The translations under genes and the position numbers were made by a program. DNA of 64,000 nt from assembly GCA_903813345.2 (NCBI GenBank), contig CAIIXF020000010.1:30622828-30686827 (forward strand), given 5' to 3'. The notes below the pieces were generated by a model that saw only the letters and a list, made by a program, of their open reading frames with translations, made no database searches and was not told the origin of the DNA. Positions 3,702 through 61,602 of this stretch are shown in pieces (within the stretch, counting starts at the first letter, position 1; each line of letters starts with the position of its first letter). This DNA comes from Owenia fusiformis. Its lineage: Eukaryota > Annelida > Polychaeta > Sabellida > Oweniidae.

Positions 3702-3710
3702 TGACTTAAT

Positions 3711-24068: not shown

Positions 24069-24317
24069 TGTAGTCCAGTTCTCCTCTATTGTCAGTTCTG
24101 TACCTCTGTACCTGCCTTTTCCGAATAAAAAGCCTATTCGATTCACTAGTTTTTGCCTGAGTTGCCACACCTATTTCAAGGTTGCCAACGTTGAACTGGC
24201 CCTTGTGTTCATCGAACCCTTGCAAAACAGCACGTGCCAACTGTTTGCTATAGATTATAATTATGTGGTCAATTTGGCCATAACAGTTGAGTTTATAGTA
24301 CATGTGAACATTTATGC

Positions 24318-24463
24318 CTTGACCACATTTGCTCCGATTTTCACTACGGCGCCCGGCCGATTGAGTATTTTGTTCAAAATTGAATACAATATTGAATGAA
24401 CAAAACACTCAATCGGCAGATCGGGCGGGCGCTGGCCGATGGATTGAAGCATATGTGACCCAG
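24318..24463. mobile_element. Foldback MITE family member 1 (CACATTTGCTCCGATT ends)
   Basis: Ends are gaccacatttgctccgattt and gcatatgtgacccag. The interior contains ggccgattgagtattttgtt, facing its complement. It is shared with 32212-32343 and 46531-46658. The right end abuts the DIRS-like element. Confidence 0.75.
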
Positions 24464-26011: not shown

Positions 26012-26035
26012 ATTATTAATTTAATTTATATTGCA

Positions 26036-27010
26036 GTGTCTGAAATTGAAAGGCTTGACAAAGAGATCAGGGACACTCAAAGAGCTGCCTTTGCCAAAGG
26101 TACGAGGGAGAATTTGAAGGTCCAATAGAATCTTTACTTTTTGTTTTGTACTTATTTAGAAATAGAGAGTATGCCTTTGTCATTAGAAAATACCCTCAGA
26201 TATATTCAATTTCTTGCCAGATCTTTTAAGACTACTCAAGCGATCAGAAATTATTTGAATGGTGTACGATTGTTACACAAGATTTCTGGTTTCGAATTTG
26301 TTCATCATAAATCTATAGACGCCAAGTTTCTATTAATGGGAGTACAGAAAAAATCCCCACACACCCCTTTACAGGCGGAACCTATGACTCCTACAATTTT
26401 AAAGCAATTAGTCTCTATTTCGGATTTAGCAAATCCAAAAGAACTTGCATTATGCACTTCCTGGGTAGTGGCCTTCTTCCTGTTTGCGAGGAAATCTAAC
26501 ATAGTTCCTCCTTCTAAATACAGATATGACTGTAACAAACATCTCTCCAGGGGTGATTTTCTTATTCAAGATGAGGTGGTTTGGGTAAACCTTAAATGGA
26601 GCAAAACCAATCAATCGGGATCTAGAAAAGTCAGGATCCCTCTTTCTCGAATACCTCACAGTTCTATTTGCCCAGTTCGTCTTATCAAAGAATTATTCGG
26701 AAGGGTACCAGTTGAATTGGGTTCACCAGCTTTTACCTTTGCCCCTGGGGAGTTCATCACGGCCAACTCCTTTGTTTCTTCACTTAGGCTAAAACTTAAA
26801 CTCTTGGGAGTGCATAGTGAACGTTACACAGGTCATAGTTTCCGCAGGGGTGGCGCCACCTTTGCCTTTAAAATTGGACTACCTGGAGAGTTCATTCAAA
26901 AGCAAGGTGATTGGGCTTCAGATGCTTACAAATTATATTTGGAGATCGATGAGGATCAGAGACAATACTTATCTGAGAGACTTGCTCAATTCATAGCCTG
27001 TAATCATTAA
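26036..27010 (+). pseudogene. Tyrosine recombinase of the DIRS-like element, one premature stop
   Basis: The homologous frame begins about 26036 (VSEIERLDKEIRDTQRAAFA) just after an acceptor-like tatattgcag. An in-frame TAG at 26126-26128 falls where related recombinases have Trp (context NLKVQ-stop-NLYFLF). After it the frame is open to TAA at 27008-27010. Catalytic residues seen: Arg in FARKSN, Lys in KWSKTN, His-x-x-Arg in GHSFRRGG, Trp in QGDWAS and the nucleophile Tyr in AYKLYLE. The enzyme would integrate circular cDNA by strand exchange. A single TGG-to-TAG change appears to be the only break. Confidence 0.8.
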
Positions 27011-28002: not shown

Positions 28003-28082
28003 CAACTCGTACCCAAGACAACTCGTACCCAAGACAACTCGTACCCAAGACAACTGGTACCCAAGACAACTCGTACCCAAGA
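28003..28082 (+). repeat. 16-bp minisatellite (AACTCGTACCCAAGAC), five copies
   Basis: Five tandem units of AACTCGTACCCAAGAC, one with a C-to-G change. The same unit occurs in reverse orientation at 36939-37013. Short frames over it are artefacts. Confidence 0.9.
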
Positions 28083-32122: not shown

Positions 32123-32211
32123 GCTTAACCAATAGAGAAGGAAGAAGAAATGAGCTTTGAATGGCTTTCATTTGAAACTTCTAGTTCAATTTTGAAGGAA
32201 TTTGCAATGTC

Positions 32212-32343
32212 TGGTTCACATTTGCTCAAATTCATCGTCCGGCCTCCGGCCGATTGAATATTTTGTTTAAAATTGTTTTCATGTTTGAAAAAACACTCAA
32301 TCGGCCGGCCCCCGGACGATGAATCGGAGCAAATATGACCCAG
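32212..32343. mobile_element. Foldback MITE family member 2
   Basis: ttcacatttgctcaaattc at the left and gaatcggagcaaatatgacc at the right. The inner arms ggccgattgaatattttgtt and caatcggccgg pair, as do cgtccgg and ccggacg. Confidence 0.75.
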
Positions 32344-32724
32344 CCATATGAGGGGCAACATTTTATTATTTATTGTTTGAAATCCTGGGAAAATGCACTC
32401 CCCCAATTTTGCAAATCTGGTCTGCGGTGCTAATGAACCCTCTAATTTGTTTTCGTTTACATGAGCAACTAACAGATATGTTTATTCTCATTCTGTCTCA
32501 GCTTGATTTTAATTAAATTTTACCCCCACCCTTCGAACGTCTTTGTCTCTCTCATTTTTGCAACCCTACATTCAGTTTCTTTTTAAACCAAATCAAGAAA
32601 TATCCGTCCACATATCAGATATTAAACCAATAGTTGTTCATTATAAGAACAACCATATATTATATTATAGATCATAAGCTATTTTTAATTTCAGCTATAA
32701 AATAAGCCCTCTCTCCCCTCCTCT

Positions 32725-36938: not shown

Positions 36939-37013
36939 GGTACAAGTTGTCTTGGGTACGAGTTGTCTTGGGTACGAGTTGTCTTGGGTACGAGTTGTCT
37001 TGGGTACGAGTTG
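36939..37013 (-). repeat. 16-bp minisatellite, inverted copy array
   Basis: Tandem units of GTTGTCTTGGGTACGA, the reverse complement of the array at 28003-28082, with about four and a half copies. Confidence 0.9.
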
Positions 37014-40103: not shown

Positions 40104-40442
40104 TTGTAAAGATATAAACGAACAAACATATTCTATTTGGATATGTTTTCATACACTAATAGTAACTCGTAATTGTGTCGACATATTCTAAACGCCAATA
40201 ATGAAGTTGTGGCACAGTCAGGGTAGTGATTGTATTCAGGGATTGTAAGCGCCAATAACAATGTTGCTTCGCAGTTAGGGTAATATGAATCAACAGATTC
40301 TGAACCCCAATACTAAAGTTGTGGAACAGTCAGGCTAGTAACTATATTCACAGAATTAAACACCAATAGCGAAATATAGGCATAGTCGAGGAAGTATTGG
40401 AATCTACATATTTTGAACGCCAATATTGCAGTGGAGGCACAG

Positions 40443-41220
40443 CTAGTAATTGTATTCACAGATTGTAAACGCCAATAACGTAGGGGTGTTACAGTCAACC
40501 ATAAACCACTTTCCCGTTGGCCGTTTCATGGTAACGCAATTCACTGCAATGTTAGAAGTAGGCTGCCCACTTTGCCAATTAGTCCAGGTTGGTTGGGCTC
40601 CTGTGTTAAACCAGACATATTGCATATCCGTATCGATGTCGTTAAGACCAATGTTCCACCAAGGAGCTGCAAAAAGCAGTGTATAAATAACATGCAAAAA
40701 TGAAAATACAATAATTCAATTTTAATAGTTCTATGGAATGCCTAAGTTAGTAATGGGGTACAACTCCTGAGAAATTGTTATCAGGTTCAACATCCGAGAA
40801 TTTTGATGCAATGGTTAAACTAGTTTTGGGGCATAATGCCTAGTAAGTAATTGGATGTAATACTTAATAAGTTTGTAATGATTGCCTTAGAAATTCGATG
40901 CAATAATATTATATAGCTTGTAATTGAGTACAATATCCAAGAATTTTGATGCAATTCTTTAGTTTGTAATGGTGTACATATCATTGTAATCGGATACAAC
41001 GCTTAAATTGAATAACGGGGTACAATACCTGAGACAAAGAATGGATGTGCCCTTATCTTGTTGTATTCGTCTTCATTTTCAAATGACAACATACTCATTG
41101 GTGGAGACTCCGACTGACATGCACTAAGCGCAGATGTTATATTTCGAAAAGTTGTTTCAAACAAATAGCAGGAACCAGCCACACCGACGTCTATATATCC
41201 CAAAGATTTACAATCTGCGG
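40443..41220 (-). other. C-type lectin domain (two exons of the sushi-lectin gene)
   Basis: About 138 residues. It begins ADCKSLGYIDVG, then CYLFETTF (first domain Cys), a WIGL-like core (WWNIGLND), WTNWQSGQPTSN and the closing VDCN...FTICEYNY. Where sugar-binding lectins carry EPN or QPD this one has QPT, and the usual WND calcium-site motif is replaced by WFMVDC. Calcium-dependent sugar binding is therefore doubtful, though the fold should be intact. An intron of about 360 bp splits the domain after FFVSG. Confidence 0.85.
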
Positions 41221-44200
41221 CTATATAAACAAAGTAATGATAACTACCTATTATTGAGATAAATATCGCACTAGTTGATCTTATCATATAATAGTCCATG
41301 GTATGAAATCTCTAGGACGTCTAGTAAAGGAGCTGGTAGCACACTATAGAGCAGCGATATTTGACCTAACATTAACATACCTACATGTGTTTCCTAATAA
41401 TTTTTATTATAACCGTTTAATATACTTCCGACTTTTAGGCTGAATTATCCCTTCCATAAACAGAGGTCAAAAAATTACCAAAAAATAAAATCCCAATTTT
41501 TCACAATTTGGAGTACACAATGCAACAGAAAATAATACAAAATGATTTTAAATATATGATTTGGTTTCTAAGCTCTAAGTTTGAGGTTATTTTTCTTATC
41601 AATACCCCAAAATTATGTAATCAGTGTATCGACGTGTTGTACTGTTTTTCAGGTATGTATACGATAAATGCTACAAATGAATCAATTTTATTTTAGAATG
41701 ACAAATGCTTAAATTATGCTAGTTTTTCACAAAATGGGTCTCAATACGTTTTGAGATATGAACTTTTTTCAGCGGTAAACATTATCAATAAAGGAGGGCC
41801 TATTGCTCTTCCTTGACTAATTGGGACTACAGGACTTGGTCGAATTCATGAATAATTGAGAAAAATCGTTATCATTATCTTCCTAAATTTTGATTGTATC
41901 CAGCGGTAAGGTCAAAGAAGAAACAGCCATTAGAAAACCTTGATGATACCCACAAGTAACAATTACTAAATGTTAATGATTTTGTTAAAGCATGTTCATA
42001 TAAATAAAAAGTTATATTACATTGTTAATTATTTCTAAATTATCTAAAATTTGATTTCAAAAGATGTCTTAAATTAAATAATAGTGACAACTTGATGAAT
42101 TATCCTTGAGCTTAACCGTTTTTTAATACTTTTACAACTTTCTATTCAAAGTATCATGCAAAATGCTAGATTTTCAGAAATGAATGACTAAAATTATTCA
42201 TCATAAAAAAATTAAATTAGACATTGCACAAATGAAAAGGGTTGAGTTTTACTGGGGTTGAGTTTTACAGGGTTGAGCTGACTTGGGGTTGAGTTTTACT
42301 GGGGTTGAGTTGACTTGGGGTTGAGTTGGACTGGGTTGAGATGACTTGGGGTTGAGATGACCTGTCACCAATAAAACGACTTTGTAACCACCATAGCTAC
42401 GTAATTTATCAGATCCTTATTCCTGTCTATTTCCGCTTTCCATTGGTATGTTCAAACTACAGCGTCATTTTTGACCCCGATTTGCTCGATGTTTTTTGAC
42501 ACAATTGGTATTGTTTATCTGGAGGAGAATTCTGATTCAAAAGAGAGTTACTAAATATTCTTTGCTATGTACCTACCCGAACAAGTTGGTTTCATTCCGC
42601 TCCAATTACCATCACTTCCACAAGTTCTCAGAGAACTTCCACTTAAGACAAACCCAGGGTCACATGCAAACGCCACTGAAGAATCATATGTTGTAGATAT
42701 GCCCATCATTGATCCATTCAGAGGGGTATCTAATGAGCCACAGTCAACAACTTCAATCAAAATACATCAATGAATTGATTAACATAAAAGCAAATAATGT
42801 CAAAACGAAGGCAAGAAAAAGCGATGAAAACATAGATACAGAAGCAAATAATGAAAACAAGCGCAATACGAACAACAGGACCAAACAAATCAGTCACAAA
42901 CAAAAAAGCAATTAATCAAACCAAAACATTTGAGCAAACAATGGCAAAAACAAACTTCAAAAACGATAAAAAATACCAACGCGAAAGCAATCAATGAAAA
43001 ATCAATGACGTTTGATTTTCCTGGTACAAGTTCATTTTTGCCTCGTTAACTTTCCAATATAGTTGGTTCAGGTTGTATTTTTTCCATTTTCTTTCATACA
43101 TTTAATGTTGTGTTATTTCTAAATATGAATCATAAGGAAATCATCTGCAGATATGACTGTATGATCTCTGAATAAATCTAGTTTTAATCTTAATTCTACG
43201 CAACCTTTTTATAATATTTGTTCCAAGTACAATAAAACAAAAGAAGTACAACAATACCCTTATGAAAGCCTTATATACAATATTCCCCCATTGCAGATGA
43301 ATTAAAATAGGCATATAGACTTACTGGTGCAAATGGTTTGAGTTCCTGACCATGTGCCATCGCCCTGACATGTCCTCAAGCTACTTCCACTGAGAGTGTA
43401 CCCAGTCTGACATGTGAAGGATACAGTTGAGCCTAGCTCAGTACCAGTGCCAGTAACTGTTCGTAAATCATATCCCGTAGGAGCACTCAACGGAGGACAA
43501 CCGGCAACTGAAAATTACAAGAATCGGATTTTTAGGCCGATATTAAAATGGCAGCAGTTATATAATTTCTTTGATTGATTCTACCTCCATCTTTATTCTT
43601 AATTATTTAGGACCTACTCTGATTAATCTCATGACGCCATTAGAGCAACAGTATACCAAAAACTATTAATTCAGACTCAAACGCTCCAGACTGTGACAAA
43701 GTTTGCTTACAAAGACGTAAGACCAGAGAGAGCTTCAGACTCGAACAACAAAAGTATGATTACAAAGACGTACAAACAGGGAATGCTTTCGACATATAAA
43801 ACTACTGTGTAACATTTGTTATACCAAAAGTTCATATTTTAATAAACGCTACTTACAGACACATTGTGGCTGCTCTCCACTCCATAATCCTGATGATAAA
43901 CATGTCCTTGTTGAATTGCCAACCAGATTAAATGCCATACTTTCACACGAGAAGGTCACTTGTGAATTGTAAATAGTCCCCGATACCATCATCGAACCAT
44001 TAACAGGAGCGTTCAGTTGACCACAATCCACAACTAAACAAAATATATAGAGGTTATTAATGGGAGGTTTTTGATACAGGGTATATCTGAGGGAAATACA
44101 ATATATTAACCCGAGAGACCGTATTAACCGAGGGTTGATATATTCTATTTACCGACGGATATACCCTGTATCAAAAATCTAGCATTTGATAAATGATTTA

Positions 44201-47200
44201 TTCTATACTAAGTACACTATGATGGTTTATAGTCGAATCCGACGGCTCAGTATCAACTCTCTGAATTTGTGACGTCGTAGATCTGATGAGCGGGTGATAT
44301 TTATATCACCCACTCACTTCAGATATCAATTATATTTCTGCATGTCATTTACCTAACATTACTAAGTATGGAATGAAATATAATATTGGTATATTTGATT
44401 TTGATATTCACTTAATGTTCGGGTATTATGGATATCAACATCAATAGTTAAGAAAATGATGCAACACAATTTGATAGAAAAATGTAAGCAGAATTCTAAC
44501 ACCAGTACGAGGGGTGATCAATAAGTAATGGACGCTTTTTTACACAGATACTTTTTATAGACCAATCCCTTTGATTTTCCTACCTGTGATACATCATTCA
44601 ATTATCTATCATTTCTGAGGATTTGAAGACAAAATATAAAATACATGTTGATATATCTTTATTTCCGTGAAGGAGGTACAGGTACCCCGGGACCGACATT
44701 TACGTCACATATTCAGTTTTCAACCAGTTTGGCAAATTTCAGTTAGATTTTAACTTTTCATATGCAACATGTGTTGTGTTGTTTGAAATACTTTGCTGAC
44801 TGGTCAACACATAAACAGAAAGTATTGTGATGTCAGAGTGTTGTATGGAAGGGGTTTGCAGGTCAATTTGAGAAAGCATTGTGGAAGAAAGGGGTGGTGA
44901 GAGAAGGGAACACCCTACTCCATATGGACAATGCACCTGCCCACAGATCTCAAAATGTTCAGAAAACAATATCCCTGGACCTCAAAATTGAGCCCTTGGC
45001 CAATGCACCATATTGTCCAGATCTGCTCACGTGTGACTTATTTATTTCTATACTACTTATTTCTATAGAGAAAGGATGCCTGTTTATTGATATTGATGAA
45101 ATAAAACAACCCGTGCAACTGCATCTTGCTACCATGTCAGAGAATGGATTCAGCCTTGTCTCACAATCTTGAATTAAGAGGATGAGGAATTGTGTACATG
45201 TAGCACTTGATGGAACCTATGTAGAGGGCCCTGTGGAATGAATGTGGCATGAATACCACATAGTGATGATAAAATATTCAAAATCAACTATGGCAGAACA
45301 AAATGGGGTAATTCATGACCATAATGGTTTGTTTTGTTCAGCCTGCATTCAACTGCATTGCATGTTAAACAAGCTAAAATAGCTTCAGAATGTTTGACGT
45401 AAATGTCGGTCCCGGGGTACCCATACATCCTTCACGGAAATAAAGATATATTAAAAGATATTACATGTTTTGTTTTCAGATCTTCAGAGTTTATAAATAA
45501 TTTAATGATGTATCACTGGTAAGAAAATCGAAGGGATTGGTCTATAAAAAGCATCTGTGTAAAAAAGCGTCCATTACTTATTGATCACCCCTCGTACATT
45601 CTAAACAGAGGGTCCAGGCTCGACACCCTTTATACTCATACTTTATTGTACATCAGAATAATATCCAACATGTTCACATCTGGAGCAGTTTACTTTAAGT
45701 AAATATAAGAAAGAAAGTCGATATTGATAAGATTTGTTTCTCTTTGTACCTACCCGTGCATGTCGTAGTTGTTCCATTCCACATACTGTCACTTTGACAT
45801 GTTCTGATAGAGCTTCCAGACAATGTATAGCCAGGATTGCATTGAAACGCTACCATTGAATTGTACGCTGTAGCTGCTTCTCCAGATATTGACCCATTGT
45901 CAGGGGCAGTTAGAGGTCCGCAATCTGCAACTATTTAAACATAATAATGCTGTTAGACAAATAATTATGAGCTGCAGACAAGGTGGTCTAGACAACTTCA
46001 ATATTTTTATGTTGCGTAAGTTTAGGAAACATTTGAACAGTAGGGATCAAGTGACAAAAACATTACAATTTGACATTGATATTAGTCTTGAATAATACTA
46101 GATTGACATCTTGCACAGCCAATAATAGAGACGTGTCATGTATGGTGATTGTTAAATTGTTAAGTTTCTGGTAAAATTGAGTCACTGGTCGAAGGCCTCT
46201 CAAGCGCGTCTCACTGGCATATTGAATAATATGTAAATAAGAGATCCACTCAAAAGATACCAAGTTTGTACTTACTTGTGCATATGGTTTCTGGTTGTGA
46301 CCAAGTTGCATTGGCCTGACATGTCCTAGTGGCAGATCCACTCAGAATGTACCCAGTCTGACAAGTGAATGTCACCACTGTGTTGTAAGTATCCCCACTG
46401 CCAGTCACTGTAGCATATCCCGAAGGAGCAGTCAACTGGCCACACCCTCCGACTATAAATTCATTTGTAGTTAGGTTAGCCCTCGCACGATCGACAACAC
46501 TATCTACACCCTCTTCTCTTAGCTTGTGCCTTGGTCACATTTGCTCCGATTTGTCGGCCGGCGTCTGGGGATTAAGTGTTTTTTTATATATGTTCAATTT
46601 TGAACAAAATACTCAATCGGCCGGGCACCGTAGTAAAAATCGGAGCAAATGTGACCAAGACAATACAAAGAAACGGCCAACATCTAGTCTTAGGTGTCAA
46701 ATTGTAGTCTTAAAGTCGAAAAAATGTCAAGGGGTCAAAGTGAAAGCTATATGAGTAAGTAAAAGTTGACGCTACGTTTATATGGTATCCTTATCGCAAC
46801 GTTATTGCAAATACAGAAGTATAACACAAGCCAATATATTAAACATTCAGAATCAAATAAGAAACGGAGTAATCAAATTGAATCTAAATTACTCACATAC
46901 ACATATCGGTTGTTCTCCACTCCATATTCCCGATGATAAACATGTCCTTGTTGAATTACCAATCAGACTGAACCCAGTTTCACACGCAAATGACGCTACT
47001 GAATTGTAATCAGTTCCAGATATAGTCAGCGTGCCATTGACAATAATGGGCGGCGAACCACAATCCACCACTAAAAAAACAATAGCCAAATCCGGCAAAT
47101 TACAATCTGATTTATCAGAGTTTCTCCAATCCAAACTCGTAAAGGGTAGTAAATACTTTTGATCTCACTATTTGACAATGGGCAAATTAGTATTACATTG

Positions 47201-50200
47201 TTATGCAAGGTTTGTCTTACACATTATCCAAATCTTGAGAATGAGCAATATTGGACATAAGAGATAAATAACAATGTCTATACAAAATGGCTACTCACTA
47301 GTATGGGGCGATTAGACGTTGATGATATGACATCAAAGGCTGACAATATTCTTACTCGAAAGATGATCTTGGGTTAACTTAAAGAAATATGATATGGCTT
47401 TCATATATATTTCTATGTACCTACCAGTGCATACTGTAATTGTTCCATCCCACGAACTGTTACTTTGACATGTTCTGATAGAGCTCCCAGACAATGTATA
47501 GCCAGGATTGCATTGGAACACTACCATTGAATTATAAACCGTCGTTCCATCTCCAAAAGTAGACCCATTGCCAGGAGCAGTTAGAGATCCACAATCTGCA
47601 ACTATTAATACATATGTCGTTTGAAATGTATATTATATATATACATATATTATATATATTATATATATATTGTATATATATAATATTGAACCTCATACCA
47701 AATTATATATGATGAAATGGGTTGAGCGGATCTTTATATCAGTATTGTCATTTCTTGAGTATTGGATCAATCAAATATAAAACCTAAGCCTAAATTGATG
47801 ATTTAATTTGTATATGTTCAAAGGATATACTTTATGTAGGCATTTTTGAATGGCCTCAATTCACATGTGTTCTTTAGTTAATATGACATGAAAATGATAT
47901 ATAAAAAGATCTGGATCATACCGGACAATCCTTCTTTCCAGAATAATATATATAGATATATAGAGTCGACAAAAGGTTGATATATATGACTTCAAGTGAT
48001 ATATTTACTTGTGCATATGGTTTCTGGTAGCGACCAAGTTGCATTGGCCTGACATGTTCTCGTGGCAGATCCACTCAGAATGTACCCAGTCTGACAAGTG
48101 AATGTCACCACTGTGTTGTAAGCATCCCCACTGCCAGTCACTGTATCATATCCCGAAGGAGCAGTCAACTGGCCACACCCTCCGACTATAAATTCATTTG
48201 AAGTTGGGTTAGCTCTCGCACGATCGACAACAATATATATCACTGTCTCTTAGATTACAAAGAAATGGCCAACAAGATCTAGTCTTAGGTTTCAACTTAT
48301 AGTCTTAAAGTTGAAAAATTTTTTTCAAGGGGTCAAAGTGAAAGCTATATTTTTTAAATAAAATTTGATATTACGTTTATACGGCACCCTTATCGCGACT
48401 TTCTGAAGTGCTATTGTCACACTGGCCATTTTAAGCACAAACGTAATTCCAACTACAGAAGTATAACACAAGCCCATTTATAAAACATTCAAAATTAAAT
48501 CTTAAATAATCTGTAATCAAAAATCTAAATTACTCACATACGCAAATGGGTTGTTCTCCACTCCATATTCCCGATGATAAACATGTCCTTGTTGAATTAC
48601 CGATTAGGCTGAACCCAGTTTCACAAGCGAATGACGCAACAGAATTGTAATCAGTTCCAGATATAGTCAGCGTGCCATTGACAAGAATGGGCAGTGGACC
48701 ACAATCAACAACTAAAGAAAGAATAAAATACGGCAAATTACAATCAGATTTATCAGCATCTTTATAATCCAAAGCTTGTGTAAGAAAATACATCGGTAAA
48801 GAAAAATATCGGTAAATACAATACATCAGATATATTGTATTTCCTTCAGATATACCCTACATCAAAAATACCATATCGTTAAATACCATATATCAACCCT
48901 CGGTCCCTACGGTCCCTCGGGTAGATATATTGTATTTCCCTCTGATATATCCTTTATAAAAAACCTCCAATTAAATAACCTCTATGTATTTCTATGTACC
49001 TACCAGTGCATACTGTAATTGTTCCATCCCACGAACTGTTACTTTGACATGTTCTGATAGAGCTCCCAGACAATGTATAGCCAGGATTGCATTGGAACAC
49101 TACCATTGAATTATAAACCGTCATTCCATCTCCAAAAGTAGACCCATTGCCAGGGGCAGTTAGAGCTCCGCAATCTGCGACTATTTTTAAACATATATCG
49201 TTTGCAATCTTCTCAGAAAAAATATCGAACTTCATACCAAATTATATATGATGGATACATAAAATTATAAAATAGTTTGAGAGGCCCTTTTTATCAATAT
49301 TGTAATTTCTTAATTATAAGAGCAATTGAAAATAAAACTCAAGCCACAATTAATGATTGCCAACTACTATTTTAATTATCTTTTGTTAGTCTATTCAAAG
49401 TAATAGAATTGTACTGGATTTCATTCAAAGGCTATATCTTATGTAGGCATTTTTAAATGGCCTCAATTCACATTTGTTCTTCAGTTGAAATATGGTTGTA
49501 ATATATGATTCCAAGTAATATATTTACTTGTGCATATGGTTTCTGGTAGCGACCAAGTTGCATTAGCCTGACATGTCCTCGTGGCAGATCCACTCAGAAT
49601 GTAACCAGTCTGACAAGTGAATGTCACCACTGTGTTGTAAGCATCACCACTGCCAGTCACTGTAGCATATCCAGGAGGAGTCAACTGGCCGCAGCCACCA
49701 ACTATAAATTAAATCTTTTTCTGCTCAAATCTGACCCACATCAAATAAAATTTAAGATATACCCTGTTAGCTTACAAAGAATCTGAACATAAGTGGGATA
49801 TGGTCTGTTTGGGAAACAAGGAAATTTCGACAGCCTAGAATCAGTTATAATGTTTCTACATGTTCTTGTGTTTGTATAAGAATTGTTCATTAGAATCACT
49901 GTTTTCACGTTGAGCACCGTGTCCTTGCAATATCAGTATTATACAAATATCGAAAGGGATTACATAACGTAAAACTTTACTTACAGACGCAAATGGATTG
50001 TTCTCCACTCCACATCCCTGATGATAAACATATTCTTGTGGAATTTCCAGTGAGATTAAACCCAGTTTCACACGTGAATGACGCTACAGAATTGTAAACA
50101 GTACCAGACAAACTCAATGTGCCGTTTGCAGGCATATCCAGCGTACCACAGTCCACAACTAAAGGAAGAATGGTAAATCCAGCAACTTAAAATGTACAAA

Positions 50201-53200
50201 TGTACGAAGGTGAGATCAGCAACGTCAGGGCTGAAACAGGAATCTAAATTATTGTATAATAATTATTGTTATAATATATATAACATGACGGCCAACCAAG
50301 TTCTGTGTATGGAAATTTCCGCGTGTCCATCTTTCGCATGTTCTAGTTCTAGTAGAGCTCCCAGACAATGTATAGCCAGGAATGCGTTGTAACACTACAA
50401 CAGCGTTATATTGAATCTCCACATTTACTCCAATTTAATGTGAAATTATATATTGCTATTGACCTACTTGTGCATGTCGTATCAGTCCCGTCCCATGATC
50501 CGTTACTTTGGCATGTTCTAACAGAGCTCCCTGACAATGTATAGCCAGGATTGCATTGGAATACTACTACGGCATCGTATGTTGTTCTTGAATCCCCAGA
50601 TTTACTCCCATTTTCAGGAGTAGATAATTCTCCACAGTCAACAACTATAAAGATTTTGATAAGATACATATTAGATTGGATAAATATGTTTTATTTCCCA
50701 AAGCTTATAAATATACAAATTTATGAAAAAGATTGTTACGTGTGAATTATGAGTCAAGAAATCTTACGTGTACAGTTGGTTTCAGTTCCTGACCACATGC
50801 CGTCACTCTGGCATGTTCTAGATGAGCTCCCTGTGAGGATGTATCCTGTCGCACATGTGAATGTCACCTCTGAGTTTGCGTTACTGAATGTTGCAGAGGC
50901 GTATCCTTGGGGAGGATTCAACTGTCCACATCCTCCAACTAAAATTTTTTCTCAGTTCAAGATCTCAATACTTTGAATGAACCTACGTAAGTTTTAAATG
51001 TTTTTTTATACTTAATCCATTTTTATTTATTCTACTCCATAAAAACATCGAGGATGTCTTCTCTGGTGTAGCGATATAAGTGGCAGAGTTCCCTTAAATT
51101 GAAAACTGTTCGTACAAAATACTCACATACACATGTTGGCTGTTGACCACTCCATATGCCGAATGATAGGCAGGTTCTTGAAGAACTTCCAAATAAAAAA
51201 AATTCAGGTGGACATGCGAACGATGCTACTGAATTGTAAACAGTCCCCGTTAAGCTCAATGTGCCATTGGGAGGAGTCGCAAGGGAACCACAATCGACAA
51301 CTGAAAAGTGATAAGTAAACGAGGATTGTTTCAGTGGCAATATTTAATATTTATTTAGGTTTTATCTCAACATCGCGACGTTTTAGAATGATGATTGATT
51401 TTTTCCGAGTGATATGAGGAACCTACCAATACACGATGTTGTCGTTCCACTCCATGTCCCATCGCTCTGGCAAGTTCTAAGAGAACTACCACTTAATACG
51501 TGACATATAGCAATATATATGTGATATAAGGAACCTACCAATACACGATGTTGTCGTTCCACTCCATGTCCCATCGCTCTGGCAAGTTCTAAGAGAACTA
51601 CCACTTAATACGTGACATATAGCAATATATATGTGATATAAGGAACCTACCAATACACGATGTTGTCGTTCCACTCCATGTCCCATCGCTCTGGCAAGTT
51701 CTAAGAGAACTACCACTTAATACGTGACATATAGCAATATATATGTGATATAAGGAACCTACCAATACACGATGTTGTCGTTCCACTCCATGTCCCATCG
51801 CTCTGGCAAGTTCTAAGAGAACTACCACTTAATACGTGACATATAGCAATATATATGTGATATAAGGAACCTACCAATACACGATGTTGTCGTTCCACTC
51901 CATGTCCCATCGCTCTGGCAAGTTCTAAGAGAACTACCACTTAATACGTGACATATAGCAATATATATGTGATATAAGGAACCTACCAATACACGATGTT
52001 GTCGTTCCACTCCATGTCCCATCGCTCTGACAAGTTCTGACAGAACTACCACTTAGCACGTGACCAATGTCACATGTGAAGACTACGTCTGAATCGTATG
52101 TTGTCGCATTGCTGGACAACGACCCATTCTCCGGAATACCAAGGACTCCACAATCGACAACTACAACAACATATCTCAAACATTTTTCGGTAGGCCTATG
52201 CACCATTTATGGTGACACATGATTTGTAAAATGTGTGCGTTTTGTTGAAATACTGAGGAAACTACTGCTAATCATTGTTCAATTACTTTAATATCGGCTT
52301 TTCATCATACACGCTGCAAGACCATTCCTCTAGAATCATAAAGTATTACGTGTGTGTCTTTGTCATCACTATGTTCTTATGGTCATATTTTTGTATCTTC
52401 TAACATATTTGTCAAAAACTATAATATTTCAATATTAACGTATATGGAGGCAATACACAGATTTGGCAAAGTGAAGTTATGATCTATATAGATTTCAAAG
52501 AAGCTTAGTTGTGCAATTGGTTTCAGTTCTTGGTCATATGCCGTCACTCTAGCAAACCCTCGAGGAACTTAATATAGTTTCTTTATGTTTTGAATTTGAA
52601 ATTTAGATTTCAAAGAAGCTTACTTGTGCAATTGGTTTCAGTTCCTGACCACGTGCCGTCACTCTGGCATGTCCTTGAGGAACTTCCTAAGAGGGTGTAG
52701 CCGGTCTGACAGGTAAATGACACCACTGCATTAAATATGTAGCTACTGCCAGTAATAGTCGCATATTCCAAAGGTGGGTTTAGCACACCACAATCTCTAA
52801 CTAAAAATGAGATTTAGATGTACGTCATATTATCAATACAATTTCATTTGCTAAACATATCTATTATATTTAATCGATAGAATATTATGCTCTTAAGTAC
52901 TGGTTCAGTACTAAACTCCAAATTGTACTTCATATATAATGTTGTGATATATAATTTCTAATAATGACACAGAGATAAGTCTTACTTGTGCATATTGTCT
53001 CTGTCCCATCCCAAGTTGAGTTGGCCTGGCACGTTCTTGTTGAACTTCCAGAGAGAACATACCCCACATTACAGGAGAATGTTGCCAATGTATTGTATGT
53101 ACTATTCGCTACATCTACTGTACCGTTTCCAGGAGCAAGTAGGGTTTCACAGTCGTTTACTATAACGGAATTAAAGGTGAAGCCTCAAAAGAGAATTCAA

Positions 53201-56200
53201 AGGACTCGACTCAGAAATTCTCATAGATAATATTTCTATTCGTTCTAGTGCGGTTATAAATCCATATTTTGCATGGTTGCATGAAAAAGTATATTGTGTG
53301 ACGTATTTGCAAAACTGGTATGGCAATGTATACTTACTTATGCACGTGGTGTTAGTGCCCGACCAAGTACTGTTAGCCAAACACAGCCTGCTACTGCTAC
53401 CAACGAGGGTGTATCCAGTATTACACGTGAATGACAGAACAGAGTTGTAAAACGTGTCATTTCCGATTGTGTCACCATTGTTGAGTGGTTCTAGAGTTGG
53501 GCAGGAGCTCACTATAACAAAAGGCCAGATAGGACCATAGTTGTAAAGGAAGTACAAGAGAGAGACGTTACTTTCAGGGTTCCTATATTATAATGTTGTC
53601 TGACGATGACATCGTGGCATAAATGGTTTCAGTTATCGATCTTGGGATTCTTTTCAAAGTCTTTGTTATGATGCCTAGGTGAATAAATTAAATTATGATA
53701 CTAAATTTATATGATATTTACATGTACATTCTGGTTGGCGTCCACTCCACACGCCCAGATATAAACACGTCCTTATAAAACTGCCAAACAACATATTGAA
53801 TCCAGTGTCACACATGAAAATCGCGACAGAATTGTAAACAGTTCCTGTTATGTTCAGTGTGCCATTAGTAGGGATGTCAAGAGGGCCACAGTCAACAACT
53901 AAGCAAAAATAATTTTATCAATATATTTTTAGATATCCATATGTGGATATATGATATGATATTACAGTAAGTGATGTCGGAAAAATATGGTATCTGTAAA
54001 CAATCAATTTTGGATCATAATAATTTACTCTGTAGGAAACAATCGTGAAACAATTGCTGACATTTTATCATAACCAACCCTTCTCTAAAATCTTGCATAA
54101 ATTGAATTTAATTGCAACTTTATAATAAAACTTCATAATAAAACTTCCTCCCATGGATTTTCTTCCAGGGAAACATTAATTGGTTCCATTTTAGTTAATG
54201 TGTCCGACCATAAGTCATAATAAGTTAACTCAGCATATGAGGTTTATGTATCCCAGCTTATTAGATATGGCAGGGCGTGTTCAAAATTTCTAGATTTCAA
54301 ATCAAGACATATTTTAGTGACCTAGCTGTTAGGTCAAGGTTATACTTGTAAAAAACTTAAGAGATCTTTTCTAGGCTTTACTGAAAAGTACAAGTCATTA
54401 ATCTTGAAATTTCAAATTTTACCACTTGAGATGCTGAAGGATGTAGGAATTGTATAATAAATTTGCAATGAACTCACAATTTTTTCACCTGGGACCTTTT
54501 GAGGTGGATCCCGGCTATGGCATTAATGGTTGAGAAATAGGGATCGAAACCAGCCATAGTTTTCTCCTGATGACCATTGTAAATCGTTGTTTTATGGATT
54601 ATGATGATGGCTTTGCGAACGGATGTTGACCCTTTGAACTGCCCATCGACTTCGAGACAGGATTTTATCTATCCAACATCATTTGAGACTGAATACTCAT
54701 ACTGAATCTTTTATGAGTACTAGTATCTACAACTATTTTTGATGTTATGAATATTGGCTACCAGTATTTTCATTTTTCTTCAACATGTATTGTAATGACT
54801 TCAGTATGAATGAAATGTCCCTTGGTGTTCTGGTCCTGGTTCTCGATTGGAGAGGGGAGGGGGATGTTAGACATTGTTTCTTTTCACGTTAGATCATGGT
54901 TTTGGAATATATAGGGTCTACTTTTCTTATGACAGATTTACACTTACAGTTTGCTTTTCGTGTTGGGTTTCTAGTCACCCTTCCCTTTTGGCATTTGTGC
55001 TTATATATTTAAGGAATTATTCATTTGCCTTGAGCCTAAAATTAATCTAATTAAGAATTGATTTTAGATTTTTACTTCATTTTATGGTAAGTTTTTTTTT
55101 TATTTAGCAATGGATTTTAAGGGTTACTTATGCATCGCCTTTCAAACATCTTAGGAAATTGGGTTTATTATAGATGAACAAATGAAGTTTCCCCTTTCCA
55201 ATTTTAATATGTCTAGTTTAAATTTGAACGAGTTCCAGCTAAAATCAAAATTGAGTTTCGCGTAGGGGGATATAATTATGTTACAGTTTAATGCTAATTG
55301 GAAACTATGCTGGGTTTATGTTAATTATCATAATTATATGATCAGAAGATAGAAAAGCGTGTCATGCATACTTTAGCAACAAATATCTCGATTAACATTC
55401 AAACATGTTTAAAAGCTACACATTCAAAAATGGCTTCCAATATATTATGTTATGGTCCAAATCCATCTCTCAGCATGCAAAACACAAAGTGCGTTTTATA
55501 TGCAAGCTTAATGTCTCTGTTGATAATACCTGTACAGGTTGGGGCAGTACCATCGTACGTCCCATCCAGTTGGCATGTTCTTTCGCTGCTGCCGCTTAGT
55601 GAATAACCTATATTGCAACTGAAGTAGAGGGATGATCCAACTGTGGTTGCAGAACCAGTTACGGTGCCATTTGCGGGGGCCGGGAGACTACCACAGTCCA
55701 CAAGGGGCACGTTCCCCGCTATTCAAATTAATGGTTTGTATATGTAACAGATAAAAATGAATATCTAATGTTCAATTTAAATGGCATATATTGTCGTCGG
55801 ATTGAATAATTGATAAAATATTGCTAGGAATAAGTATGTAAGTACAAATACTTATGTAAGTAAATATAATATCCAAACTGAAATAACTTTGCGTTCCTCA
55901 AGGATCCGCACGGATCGCCCAACTCGGACCGCCAAACGACGAACACCGTAAACAAAAAGACTAGGGACTATATGGTTTAATAAGGTACCTATAATTTCTA
56001 TATTTCTAAAATACACCCAAAATAGTTCAACAACCGGAAGTCTCATTGTAGACAAATTGCAACTTAATTAAATGCTTCATATTAATGTTGTTGAAAAACT
56101 GAGATAAACATAAAATGGCATTAAAACACTATTCAATTGGTACTTCCAACTTATGGAAGGGGCTGTATTAAGGTATACATTATATACTTACAACATCTTT

Positions 56201-58002
56201 GCTTTTTGTAATGTGTTATGTTGTTGACGACGTTAAAAGAGTTACAAGTTGTCGTTGTATCGTGTGAATAACACAGGTTTGACAGGAAATTAAAGTCAAC
56301 AGCTGAGCAGGACGCATTGCAGGAATTAAGGCAGTCCCTAGCTGTGATGACACCCGGCACTAACACTGCTCCAAATACATTGACATCACTGTATTGTTCA
56401 AGGACTGGCAGAGCTGTTAATGAAAAAATCACAATCGAAAATGTATCATGTTCTTTTCGGTAAATATCTACTGCAGTTTGAATGTTTCTGTAATTTGTAA
56501 TGAGTATCAATTCTATGGGGATCCTTTGCTGGAATCATTGAAAGATGAACAGGTTGTACAGTGTACGCACATCACAGAATCATGTTAGTGATAAAAGTAA
56601 TCCGAAACAAATAATTCACAACAATTAACGAGCCTGTAGTGAGTTCTCGATGCAAGTGTTTGCAAAGAAGCACTACTACATATCCGAAACAAATAACTCA
56701 CAACAATTAACGAGCCTGTAGTGAGTACTCGATGCAAGTGTTTGCAAAGAAGCAGTACTACATAAGTATTCGACGTTGTCGATATCGTGACTGAAACATC
56801 TCTGCTGGTCGAAGTCAACTCCCATGCACCTTGATTGAGTCTCGCAGATGTTGATGCATTCTGTCGCTGTGGTCGCTCCTGCGATCTCCGTTCCCCCGGG
56901 GACGTGGAAACCAGCAAATGAATCTTAGAAAAAAGGACAAAGACTTACATTTCAATTGTGTTGCTTTGTTAGACGTTTCCGGCGACCCACGTGATAGAAA
57001 CCTCTAATTTTGATTATCTTGTTTTTGATTTAGATTTAAAAAATGTCAACAAAATTTCTATTTAGTAAATTTTCTTGTGTAACCTTAGTAATAGGTAGGT
57101 CTAGGGGAAAGTTAGTTAATATAACTCTCTTATCATCAACAATAGTTCTGCTTATCATTAGGGATAGGTCTAGGGAAAAGTTAAGATAATTTTCTCTTAT
57201 CATCAACAATAATTTTTCTTATCATTAGGGATAGGTCTAGGGAAAACTTAAGATAACTTTCTCTTATCATCAACAATGGTTTTTCTTATCATTAGGGATA
57301 GGTCTAGGGAAAAGTAAAGATAACTTTCTCTTATCATCAACAATAATTCTGCTTCTCATTAGGGATAGGTTTAGGGAAAAGAAAAGATGACTTTCTCTTA
57401 TCATCAACAATTGCTCTTCCTACATTAGGGATAGGTCTAGGGGAAATTAAGGTGGGAATAACAAAAATGCAAGCATACTGCATATTCAATGGTAATTGAA
57501 AGAATACTATTCTGTACGAAATATTAATCTAATGAAGGTACAGGTTGAAAAAACCATAGGACAATTTCCAATTTGGGCTTATCCCTGCTTCTTGGAACTA
57601 ATAAAAATCTAGGATACCAAGAAATTTGATGTCATTGCATCCTACAAGAAATTAGGGAATCTTGGCGGTATCCTTTGAATAATGAATGCCTAATTGGTAT
57701 TTAGACTCCCAAAATTAGACGTTCGTTGAAAATTGTTAAAAACATTCAAAATCTAGGATACCAAGAAATTTGTTGCCATTGCATCCTACAAGAAATAAGG
57801 GAAACTTAAGGGGTTGCTTTGAATAATGAATGCCTAATTGATATTTAGACTCCCAAAATTAGACGTTCAAGTTCAATATGTCGAAACGATTAATTTTAAT
57901 ATGAAAATCAGAGTTTAACTTACCTATTACAATACAGCTAACACCTCCGAGATACAATCCAATCCCAAATATAATTTGTAAATAGTCCCCAACGTGTGCC
58001 AT
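40443..58002 (-). CDS. Secreted PAN/apple - 21 x sushi (CCP) - C-type lectin protein, about 1546 aa
   Basis: Twenty-six minus-strand exons join in frame (4641 nt), every junction phase 1. Signal peptide 58002-57924. PAN-like exons 56923-56702 and 56413-56192 (222 nt each). Sushi: 55718-55530, 53898-53722, 53511-53338, 53159-52986, 52800-52624, 52160-51987, 51300-51127, 50938-50768, 50644-50468, 50158-49985, 49701-49528, 49180-49004, 48711-48538, 48185-48009, 47601-47425, 47070-46897, 46452-46276, 45930-45754, 44033-43857, 43507-43325, 42750-42577. Lectin 41220-41029 and 40666-40443 (stop TAG). Each sushi exon has the four-Cys pattern with CG at the start, GYxLSGSSxRTC and WSG or WDG. No membrane segment follows the lectin, so the product is probably secreted. 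Sushi and lectin modules suggest adhesion, glycan binding or immune recognition (inference). The order is the reverse of selectins. Tandem exon-end copies and intronic transposons complicate splicing. Confidence 0.88.
42238..42362. repeat. GGGGTTGAGTTKACT minisatellite
   Basis: About eight imperfect copies of a 15-16-bp unit (tggggttgagttttact / tggggttgagttgact) in the intron between sushi 21 and the lectin exons. Confidence 0.85.
44070..44186. repeat. Short foldback repeat, copy 1
   Basis: tttttgatacagggtatatc at the left faces gatataccctgtatcaaaaa at the right; the inner part aacccgagagaccg faces ccgagggtt. A related copy is at 48833-48968. Confidence 0.75.
44508..45594 (+). mobile_element. 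Mariner element, TA target duplication, transposase fragment
   Basis: The ends cgaggggtgatcaataagta and tacttattgatcacccctcg are perfect inverted repeats flanked by TA (44506-44507 and 45595-45596). Arms pair for about 200 bp (aatggacgc, ttttatagaccaatccctt, ccccgggaccgacatttacg). Inside, 44879-45172 encodes LLHMDNAPAHRSQNVQKTIS and ANAPYCPDLLTCDLF, matching the mariner DNAPxH and PYSPDLxxCDFF blocks. Roughly the first two-thirds of the transposase is missing, so it needs enzyme in trans. It sits in the intron between sushi 18 and 19. Confidence 0.88.
46531..46658. mobile_element. Foldback MITE family member 3
   Basis: Ends are cttggtcacatttgctccga and tcggagcaaatgtgaccaag. It is the best-preserved terminal pair of the family, in the intron between sushi 16 and 17. 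Confidence 0.8.
47636..47690. repeat. TA-rich microsatellite
   Basis: About 55 bp of TATATA-type sequence in the intron between sushi 14 and 15. Confidence 0.9.
48833..48968. repeat. Short foldback repeat, copy 2
   Basis: Contains atattgtatttccttcagat at one side, ccctcggtccctacggtccc in the centre and atattgtatttccctctgat at the other. Related to 44070-44186. Located in the intron between sushi 12 and 13. Confidence 0.65.
50310..50440 (-). pseudogene. Decayed duplicate of sushi exon 9
   Basis: ccagacaatgtatagccagg and the following bases repeat the middle of exon 9 at an offset of 169 bp. Translation gives NAVVVLQRIPGYTLSGSSTR, in which a domain Cys has become Arg; the 3' end and donor are lost. 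A non-functional exon copy in the intron after sushi 9. Confidence 0.75.
51417..52065 (-). repeat. 112-bp tandem array of the 3' end of sushi exon 6 with its splice donor
   Basis: Six copies at exact 112-bp spacing; donor positions (plus-strand acctac) begin at 51421, 51533, 51645, 51757, 51869 and 51981. The copy at 51981 belongs to the real exon 6. Each unit holds about 70 nt of coding sequence (SGSSLRTCQSDGTWSGTTTS), an intact GTAGGT donor and about 40 nt of intron. The five extra units are nearly identical to each other and differ slightly from the exon copy. 112 is not a multiple of three, and read-through meets a stop (RIKW-stop), so use of a downstream donor would truncate the protein. 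Confidence 0.95.
52491..52700 (-). repeat. 115-bp tandem duplication of the 3' end of sushi exon 5
   Basis: gatttcaaagaagctta at 52491 recurs at 52606, followed in both by ttgtgcaattggtttcagtt and gccgtcactct. The outer copy has lost its donor (GTAAGC became CTAAGC on the coding strand), leaving the inner one functional. Confidence 0.85.
56601..56764 (-). repeat. 82-bp tandem duplication of the 3' end of the first PAN-like exon
   Basis: tccgaaacaaataattcaca at 56601 recurs at 56683 as tccgaaacaaataactcaca, followed by matching acgagcctgtagtgagt and gcaagtgtttgcaaagaag. The exon-proximal copy keeps a GTGAGT donor (plus-strand actcac 56696-56701); the distal copy has GTGAAT. Confidence 0.9.
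57085..57450. repeat. 67-bp minisatellite in intron 1 of the sushi-lectin gene
   Basis: gggataggtctaggg recurs at 57161, 57228, 57295, 57362 and 57428, with cttatcatcaacaat between; about six copies. Confidence 0.9.
57606..57893. repeat. 144-bp direct duplication in intron 1
   Basis: aatctaggataccaagaaat at 57606 recurs at 57750. Both copies continue through gcatcctacaagaaat to actcccaaaattagacgttc. Confidence 0.9.
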
Positions 58003-60496
58003 TCCACCGAATCTAATGACAGCGCGAGTTAAAGTTACCGCATATCTCTGTTAAAACCGTCTATACTGAAAACATCGGTTCATTATGCATATAACATATT
58101 TCTTTAATTGCAACTGCCGAAAGGCTTGATGTTTTTGTTGAAAACATTACGTAATTCTGATTGAATTGATTAAATTAGGAAATTGAGTGTCTAGTCATAA
58201 TGGACAAACACGTTTTAATTATTTCCAATAGGCTTTTACATGTAATTAAGTTTTACAAAATGTGATTAAACATGAATTTATGCACATTAAGATATCTATT
58301 ATTTGCCAGGCTGTAGATTATCCCCATGAGGGATATTTGGATTATCGAGGCTAACATAATATCTATTTACCCAAAGACTTGAAATTTCGAGGGATATCCC
58401 GTGAACCGAAGTTGTTAACCGACTAAAGGATAATCTGTTTATTCTTTACATGATGGTATTTGACGGTTTTCGATAAAAGGGTATATCCTGAAAGAACTAC
58501 AATAATATCAACCATAACTGGCCCAGAAAATGTTTTTAGGAAAAATGTTTTAGGGGTTCGAAAATGGGCATTTTTGGCATTTTGGCCTTTTTTGGTCAAA
58601 TTTTCAAAAATGGGTGCGTTTTTTTCAAAATTTGTCCAAATATTTTACCGCGGAATTTTGTTTTCCAGACATGAAATTTGCCCCCCCCCCCGTTCCTAGC
58701 GTCTTGATCCGCCAGTGATACAATTGGTCAAAAAGTACTAAAACCTGTTCAAAACTGCAACACTTTCCATGCTCTATTCCACATAATTTAGAAGTGCAAT
58801 TACAATGATTAAGTAGCTGTAAGCATAATCATTGTATAGAAAACATATATTATTATGCACGGCTTATACAACCAGTCAGCATACAACTCAAGTAATAAGG
58901 AACTATATGTCATTTCTGAAAGCGGAAATGATGAAAAATGCCAAATTTTGTCCTTAAGTGTCTATTTTTTTTCATATTTTCCAGTCATTTTTCCTAATAA
59001 ATGGGGTAGGGGAGATCTGAAAGCTCTAATATGAACATTGGTTGTTCATTATAGATTTTCTATATCTTAAATGGAAGAAGACATATGTACAAGAGCAGAT
59101 TGAATTAAAATTCACCAACCAGTTAGCATGAGACTCAAGATATGAGGAACTATATGTTATTGCTGAAAGCGAAAATGATAAAAAATGTAGTCCTTAAATG
59201 TGCCATTCGTAGACTAATGAAGGTCCTGAAACACATGAAAAACATTAAATAATACAAATTATTGATATTGAAAAGCTACAACTTTGTTTGAGTTAAAGAT
59301 TTTTGTAGATTTTTTAGAACTTTTTTTTTTAAAATCAAGGTATATGTATGTCTTCTTCGGACCAGTGTTTCGATATGTTTGCAAGTATTATATACTTCGC
59401 AGGCGAAATCCCTTATGAAGGAGACCCAAATAGAATAAAAAATACAAAGAAATTCCATCCAGCTCATCAAGTCATTTTTTCCCTTAACTCTCTTAGAACA
59501 TTTTTCACCCGAGTACTCATGCCTTCGTGTAAGGTTTGAAACAACACCTTTTTGAAATGATAATAAGTCAACAAACCACTGAGTCTATGGCATAAATCCT
59601 TAAACATTTTATCATGAGCAGATAAATGTTTCAGTATTTCAGACAAGGGGTACTAATTTTCGAAGTTACGATGTGTAAAGCAAACAAGTTATCAATAAAC
59701 TCTAAAAATGTTTATGTTAAACCAGAAAAGTAATTGGAAAAAGCTACGTTAAAGAGGAATCTTCGGTATGGTATGGAATATGGGACGTTCGAGATGATAC
59801 CCATTCCGTATATATACATAGGTCAACTAGTTTAAACTTGATTTTTCAAAAATATGGAAAAATAAGAAAATAAGGAGAAAAAGGCTAGGGGTATCGTCGA
59901 TGTGGCTACAAAACTGAAATAACATGACCTCTTTTAATCAACTAATATAATCTACTAACCGACACAACGAGTCAAATAATTTTAAAATGATAATATTTTC
60001 CCATTGTTTGATGGTTCTCTATGGTTTTCACAGCAGCAGCTAACGAACGTGTTGTCATGAGGCGAATGGAGATTATAGGACCAAGATAACGGAAATGTTA
60101 ATGCAAATCAAATTGTGAAAGGTCGCGCTCACGATGAGCGATGCGCATCTGGATTATTGCAAAACAATAACAGTTCATGATCGAATGAACTTATTAAAAA
60201 AATTCTGCAAAATACTATTTAGAACATTGACTTTGCACCAAACTACTCCCGAAGGGTTTGGCAGCATCAGATCACCAACGTATTTAAAGCAGTTAATTCC
60301 AAAAATTAAAAAATCATAAGTCAAAGGTTGGTCATCTAATGCAATTATGAAATGAGATTGAATTTCAAGCATTACCCTCATCAAAAGGCATAAAAAAATG
60401 TCAAAATAACATCAAAATACATTGTATGGAATTCCTCATATCGATAGAAATATTACTGCGTTGATATATACAATAACAAGGCAAAGACGTGAACAA

Positions 60497-61033
60497 TATC
60501 GTACCTAAAACACAACATTGTGGTCTTGTTGACCAAGAAAGCAAGATGGCCGCAGAAAAGTTAATCAGCTCTAGAACTTATCACTGTGTAACATATGTAA
60601 AAATTTGAACGGTTTGGCTGGAAACCTGTAGACAAGTCTTGAAAGTGAAGATTTTAGGACGGAAAATCCAAAATGGCCACCTTAAAATTTACCCAGAATG
60701 CCCAAAAACCAATCAGTTCTTGACGTTGATATGTAGAAACATCCCTGAAAATTTCAGATGAATCCCTCAAATAATTTGGCTGAAAATCTGTAGACAAGTC
60801 TTGAAAGTGAAGATTTTAGGACAGAAAATCCAAAATGGCCACCTTAAAATTTACCCAGAATGCCCAAAAACTAATCTGTTCTTGACGTTGATATGTAGAA
60901 ACATCCCTCAGATGAATCCCTCAAATGGTTTGGCTGGAAACCTGTAGACAAGCTGAAAAGTGAGACGCCGCCCGCCGCTCGCCCGCACGCCCGCCAAGCT
61001 GACTACAATATCGTACCTTTTGTTAGGTACGAT
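60497..61033. repeat. Repeat with 162-bp internal tandem units and a GC-rich tail
   Basis: gacaagtcttgaaagtgaag occurs at 60631 and 60793 with the following 100+ bases matching (caaaatggccaccttaaaat, gttgatatgtagaaacatcc). A third partial start is at about 60936. It ends in a CGCCCGC-rich stretch (60964-61000). Both sides carry atatcgtacc (60499 and 61008). Confidence 0.8.
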
Positions 61034-61209
61034 AAAAACGAATGTCTTTGTTGCTTGTAAAATATGTCTTCGTATTATTCCTACAAGACGGAAAACTGTC
61101 TTCCGAACTGTTTCCGAGGCGAGGGAACCGATTGTAAATATCGAGATAATTACTTCATATTTCAAAACCGGAATCCACGCACTACGTACGCATGGGCCGT
61201 ATAACAGTT

Positions 61210-61602
61210 AAAAGGACGAATCTCGGTTTGGAGAACGAAGTTTATCAATCTAAATGAGCATTATCCCTGCTTCGGACAAATCTGATTTTTTTACATTAAT
61301 ATAGATTTGAATGCCTTTGAATAGTGATAATTTAATTTGGGTAATATTTCTAGATTTTTCGCCAAAAAATATTAGTGCAGTACACTGATGAACTTCTTTC
61401 CCGAAATCGAGACTTGTATTTTATTGAATCGGTCTAATTGAGCGTTATCCCTGCTTCAGACCAATTTGTTATTTTTGCATCTTGTAGATTTAAATGTCCT
61501 CTTTTGAATGTACATAGTTTAATTTGGGTAATATTTCTATATTTTTCATGAAAAAAAGTATTAGCCCAGGAGACTGTTCTCCAAACCGAGAATCGTCCTT
61601 TG
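61210..61602. mobile_element. Foldback element with internal direct repeat
   Basis: aaaggacgaatctcggtttg (61211) pairs with caaaccgagaatcgtccttt (about 61582-61601). Inside, two direct repeats of about 183 bp both contain ttatccctgcttc and tttaatttgggtaatatttc. Confidence 0.8.

Follow-up and report, generated by a model that had tools for sequence, protein, structure and literature searches.

Small tandem duplications of exon 3′ ends in a PAN, sushi and C-type lectin gene of Owenia fusiformis, including an array of six splice donors

In Rogers-type intron gain, an exon segment that contains AGGT is tandemly duplicated in genomic DNA (review, PMC3443670). The potato RdRp gene is described as carrying a short tandem duplication that spans the junction of an intron with an exon, with a new intron backed by RNA reads, and one of its introns holds a further duplication of 83 bp (PMC4974935). 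Duplication of a splice acceptor, three bases long, has also been mentioned (PMC7261849), and among short insertions (<100 bp) in the human genome small tandem duplications are reported to be the commonest (PMC8355091).

The locus described here resembles the potato RdRp gene in that short tandem duplications cross an exon boundary. However, the potato duplication runs from intron to exon (that is, on the acceptor side) and its new intron is RNA-backed (PMC4974935), whereas the present ones run from exon to intron (on the donor side) and are known from sequence alone; moreover, an in-frame new intron is not possible at the exon termed sushi 6. As in Rogers-type gain, an extra 5′ splice site has been set beside an old one, but it is a working donor that has been copied and not a latent AGGT, and no frame-keeping intron results (PMC3443670). 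Break-repair duplications are likewise direct tandem copies of tens to ~100 bases (PMC8355091), whereas the events at this locus are germline ones seen in one sequence, with units of 57–115 bp at or above the <100 bp class. Whole sushi exon blocks have been duplicated in the same gene, as in Dscam-type arrays (PMC1397879), but the exon-end copies are partial and without an acceptor, and thus cannot by themselves be alternative exons. Among the matches listed in a search of the open-access literature on duplicated splice sites and intron gain by duplication, none was recognised as describing several donor-side duplications within a single gene; since that search covered only the top matches, absence is not proven and the donor-side case cannot be called unpublished.

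The window, that is, the whole 64,000-nucleotide stretch of DNA analysed, is animal DNA in appearance, with intron-bearing genes, a G+C content of 30–40% per 2 kb, and the retroelement-like frames and inverted-repeat elements described below. The gene, an animal gene on the minus strand, contains two PAN domains, 21 sushi domains, and one C-type lectin domain, and 25 of its exons have been mapped (Table 1); the map excludes the first exon, which was not located, and the stop of the gene is at 40443. Joined via their first donors, the 25 exons give one open frame of 1519 residues with a single terminal stop, and the lengths of all 24 exons preceding the last are divisible by 3. The sushi repeats are above the Pfam cutoff; with the exons scanned as separate pieces, PAN_1 on the PAN1 exon (17.0 bits, cutoff 21.4) and Lectin_C (18.2 bits, cutoff 22.6) are below it, as are weak matches to cEGF and HRM. 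The PAN_1 match falls on PAN1, and the PAN2 exon is named by resemblance. Pfam gave no match on the minus strand at 57–64 kb. Sushi blocks of three exons each are tandemly duplicated at ~1.6 kb within 45710–50648, their introns being alignable at 67–70% over long stretches, and residue identity is 95–97% within the groups sushi 11/14/17, sushi 12/15, and sushi 13/16.

Table 1. Positions in the window of the mapped gene part and of the duplications within it
Feature	Positions	Strand	Description	Basis
Mapped gene part	40443..56923	-	PAN1, PAN2, sushi 1-21, C-type lectin 1-2	Exon map from sequence, joined frame, Pfam
PAN1, first copy	56682..56764	-	Exon end, donor (+1 at 56701), ~20 intron bases	
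PAN1, second copy	56600..56682	-	3 of 82 bases changed, weaker donor (gtgaat)	
Sushi 5, first copy	52601..52685	-	Exon end, donor (+1 at 52623), 20-23 intron bases	
Sushi 5, second copy	52486..52570	-	11 substitutions in 82-bp core, two exon-frame stops, donor GT to CT	
Sushi 6 array	51409..52064	-	Six 112-bp units; donors (+1) 51986, 51874, 51762, 51650, 51538, 51426	
Sushi 9, decayed copy	50346..50436	-	Middle of exon (exon nt 31-130), no donor	
Intron-only, sushi 12-13	48828..48963		Offset 95, weak (score 29)	
Intron-only, between two lectin exons	40775..40989		Offset 143, weak (score 26)	
Last-exon array	40169..40497	-	57-bp array, about 5.9 decayed copies, starts with last ~55 coding bases and stop codon	

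The whole window was scanned for direct repeats at distances of 30–500 bases with a score threshold of 24, after 12 simple-repeat stretches had been masked; short-period TRF repeats (e.g., 31 bp at 30400) lie below this threshold. Four Markov-shuffled windows served as the control and yielded a single segment scoring at least 20, with a score of 21, compared with 42 for sushi 9, 61 for sushi 5, 77 for PAN1, and 532 for sushi 6. The scan printed 26 rows, of which 3 representing exon-exon paralogy were dropped and the remaining 23 were grouped into 14 duplications. Seven are inside the gene, at PAN1, sushi 5, sushi 6, sushi 9, the end of the last exon, and the two intron-only sites, and seven are outside it (4963, 8603, 57126, 57589, 58869, 60613, and 61316); hence a mapped exon is not involved in 9 of the 14, namely the seven outside the gene and the two intron-only ones. 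Five duplications that are exon-free as mapped form a cluster at 57096–61576, upstream of the PAN1 exon, with offsets of 67, 144, 247, 162, and 187 bp.

Other elements were also observed in the window. A gene of the DOMON/copper type II monooxygenase kind (Pfam) lies at 3705–17000 on the plus strand and is presumably MOXD1- or DBH-like; its exons are outside the map, and the duplications at 4963 and 8603 fall outside its Pfam stretches. An inverted-repeat element with the end GGTCACATTTGCTCCGAT, or nearly so, is present in three copies (46531–46670, 24315–24460, and 32201–32346), one of them in the intron between sushi 16 and sushi 17. The element-end pattern had no match in viral contigs, and a match in one bacterial contig (L001, Rhizobium sp.) was taken as chance. 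The intron between sushi 18 and sushi 19 contains, at 44505–45597, an element with ~196-bp inverted ends that are 89% alike, mariner-like by eye. At 24692–27010 on the plus strand, two long open frames look retroelement-like by eye, with reverse transcriptase/RNase H-like and tyrosine-recombinase-like parts, and might conceivably be of the DIRS type; the first frame had no match in the PDB at 0.001. Two 16-bp minisatellites, at 28003–28082 (CAACTCGTACCCAAGA) and 36939–37013 (GGTACGAGTTGTCTTG), have units that, by eye and once rotated, form a pair of reverse complements. Rfam gave no match at the gathering score.

The initial annotation had described tandem duplication of the exon 3′ end together with its donor at PAN1, sushi 5, and sushi 6, and all three duplications are present in the sequence at scores above those of the shuffled windows. 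The unit sizes of 82 bp at PAN1 and 112 bp at sushi 6 hold, whereas the 115 bp given for sushi 5 is a spacing: the copied stretch is 82–85 bp long, and the other ~33 bp of the period are spacer sequence that has no counterpart behind the second copy. The two PAN1 copies are offset by 82 and the two sushi 5 copies by 115. The distal donor, said to be mutated in both cases, is destroyed at sushi 5 but only weakened at PAN1 (from gtgagt), its gene-specific score falling from 6.7 at the first donor to 3.4. Read-through past the first donor of either exon meets a stop within a few codons. The damage to the distal donors of both simple copies was taken as compatible with neutral decay, given that 82 bp hold 3 substitutions at PAN1 and 11 at sushi 5, and selection against distal donors was set aside. 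That the copies at PAN1, sushi 5, and sushi 6 are decayed whole exons is ruled out by the sharp left edge inside the exon and the absence of an acceptor.

At sushi 6, six donors follow one another at 112-base steps, as first described, and all are intact with equal scores of 8.9. The donor positions originally listed (51869, 51757, and so on) have to be corrected, each being 5 bases lower than the G of the GT, and the parent donor at 51986 had been omitted. Copies 2–5 are identical base for base. Copy 1 differs from copy 2 at 5 positions in 96, all within the first 34 bases, and copy 6 has one different base, at intron position +11, and unrelated sequence beyond +18. Unequal exchange produces identical inner units with differences confined to the edges, and the array, with its inner copies alike and its edge copies divergent, agrees with this expectation. 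An older pair, to which the 5 differences in the 34 nt nearest the left edge belong, was probably expanded later by unequal exchange. Since the stretch that is alike includes the working exon end and its donor, that end may have served as the source for renewing the copies; the intact state of all six donors would probably reflect units that were amplified recently and homogenised along with the working exon end. The unit pattern had no match in viral contigs. Test constructs with duplicated 5′ splice sites were reportedly used by Reed and Maniatis in 1986 and by Eperon in 1993; the sushi 6 exon is like such constructs in having several identical donors behind one exon, but is a natural array of six, read from genomic sequence.

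The decayed middle-exon copy noted earlier beside sushi 9 is real, covers nucleotides 31–130 of the 177-nt exon, and has no donor; it resembles sushi 12, sushi 15, and sushi 18 too, and the rejection of whole-exon decay given above does not extend to it. The array at the end of the last exon was absent from the initial annotation, as were the two intron-only duplications in the gene. In this array the stop codon, and no donor, has been duplicated, with the same geometry as in the other cases, and TRF gives a 112-bp period besides that of 57 bp.

The account we favour, at a probability of roughly 0.75, is that these are small tandem duplications of the ordinary kind, among which selection has let stay those with an intact exon and first donor or stop, and that the sushi 6 array was later expanded by unequal exchange. 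Generic small tandem duplications of genomic DNA, which are common in this stretch of DNA, would arise by break repair or replication slippage and would then be filtered by purifying selection. A duplication starting inside an exon and ending beyond it would generate the order exon, donor, copy, donor, so that the exon survives complete in the first copy, in frame and with its own donor, and everything after it would be intronic or, where the last exon is concerned, downstream of the stop. Such a duplication would cost little because a complete first exon copy with its donor or stop remains; one lying wholly within an exon, with a length that is not a multiple of 3, would break the frame. The extra copies would subsequently decay, and indeed sushi 5 has stops and a dead donor, PAN1 has a weakened donor, and the sushi 9 and last-exon copies are degraded. 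The traits of a generic process are present: the adjacent direct copies are above chance, and the same kind of event is found away from exons. The earlier proposal of a shared mechanism or a common constraint is partly supported. The constraint fits, in that every duplication leaves a complete first exon copy with its donor or stop and no comparable copy lies on the acceptor side. A mechanism specific to donors has less in its favour, given that the geometry recurs without a donor at the last exon and that 9 of the 14 duplications are without a mapped exon. Against the generic account, the nearly identical end points at PAN1 and sushi 5 (−62 and about +20) are not predicted by it, and six equal donors at sushi 6 would be expected to compete; the excess at exon 3′ ends, the split between downstream and upstream copies, and a possible assembly error in the array size, all taken up below, count against it as well.

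What the later sushi 6 donors could produce bears on whether they are kept for a purpose. The first donor is expected to be the one in use. For each of the five others, read-through adds 17 residues (GRFLISHIYCYMSRIKW) and then reaches the same stop, which sits 59–507 nt before the junction. The earlier suggestion of truncated isoforms thus holds to the extent that use of a later donor would end at this one premature stop, 17 residues on; a truncated secreted form or a decay-bound mRNA is possible from the predicted frame, with mRNA decay the probable outcome. Acceptor-like CTTAG motifs inside the copies, at sushi 6 only, create potential 62-nt introns and 50-nt micro-exons, and inclusion of 1 to 5 of these leads to an early stop in every case. 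No route to a longer protein via the sushi 6 donors or micro-exons was found, and a coding role of the copies was rejected on the grounds that all five later donors and every number of micro-exons give an early stop. It is unlikely that the spare donors have been selectively kept for a truncated or unproductive transcript, whether as an alternative donor or as a poison exon end, so as to tune or diversify the protein. Six intact and equal donors, and a single early stop so placed upstream of the junction as to suit mRNA decay, would be in keeping with such a role, but the distal donors of PAN1 and sushi 5 are damaged, and the near-identity of the sushi 6 copies already explains why their donors are intact.

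This near-identity could also reflect misassembly, in which a genuine pair or triplet became six copies. Identity to the base among copies 2–5 is what such an error would leave; however, at both its left and its right edge the array departs from the inner copies as a real one does, and the divergent pairs at PAN1, sushi 5, sushi 9, and the last exon are beyond the reach of this explanation, which we consider improbable.

Whether duplications fall at exon 3′ ends more often than by chance was assessed in two ways. Each of the 25 exons was set against as many as 600 bases of the intron or flank to either side. Strong copies, with z values between 16 and 41, are present downstream of 5 exons (PAN1, sushi 5, sushi 6, sushi 9, and the last exon), leaving out borderline similarities upstream of sushi 1 (z 6.1) and downstream of sushi 17 (z 6.4), and on the acceptor side no exon has a comparable copy within the nearest 600 bases or less. 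A similarity upstream of sushi 7 (z 7.9) was discarded, as it lies within the sushi 6 array and reflects sushi paralogy. By our own arithmetic, the two-sided sign probability of the 5-to-0 split is 0.06. Furthermore, 4 of the 7 duplications in the gene, not counting the sushi 9 copy among the 4, are at exon 3′ ends with the 5′ end uncovered, compared with 0.8–1.6 of 7 expected by random placement in the gene. The probability of at least 4 is 0.004–0.05 in this test, which was picked post hoc; the range spans the use of period or copied length, a detectability of exon copies up to twice that of others (the detection bias in the simulations being an assumed factor of 2), and the purging or keeping of within-exon duplications. 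With the last exon removed, the probability of at least 3 is 0.04–0.08. The excess is suggestive and not firm, and with 4 seen against 0.8–1.6 expected the generic account needs a substantial contribution from selection or from detection bias.

The same excess could be read as the mark of a mechanism linked to the donor itself, in which a fragile or paused 5′ splice site in transcribed DNA undergoes templated repair that duplicates approximately −62 to +20 and leaves filler at the junction. Relative to the donor, the copied stretch extends from −62 to +20 at PAN1, from −62 to +20 or +23 at sushi 5, and, judged from the last copy, from −78 to +18 at sushi 6, and unmatched bases separate the first copy from the next at sushi 5 (~33) and sushi 6 (~16). 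The near-equal end points in two unrelated exons, PAN1 and sushi 5, should be rare by chance, yet they are one coincidence among many possible, and the coincidence vanishes if the period is taken as the sushi 5 unit, because this moves the intron end: by period, the intron ends are at +20 (PAN1), +53 (sushi 5), and about +34 (sushi 6). In addition, a donor is absent from the last-exon array and the sushi 9 copy, so that not every event includes one, and duplications without exons are the commoner. We thus regard a donor-linked origin as very unlikely. Least probable of all is an extended version in which exon 3′ ends are a preferred substrate of templated duplication with a near-constant footprint (~−62 to +20), perhaps a defined fragile or copied stretch arising from co-transcriptional donor recognition, and surplus donors survive as the spliceosome commits to the first-made donor, although, if true, it would make the exon ends of the lineage a record of splice-site commitment.

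Irrespective of how its copies arose, the gene is a case of duplication at several scales, from 57-bp and 112-bp arrays and single 82-bp copies to three-exon blocks of ~1.6 kb. Its donor-carrying partial-exon duplications are the mirror image of the acceptor-side, intron-making duplication described in potato (PMC4974935). With six identical donors spaced 112 nt apart behind a natural exon, RNA from this animal could show which of several equal donors a living cell chooses. Finally, the 3′-side excess, if it is genome-wide, would mark the kinds of change that splicing can tolerate.
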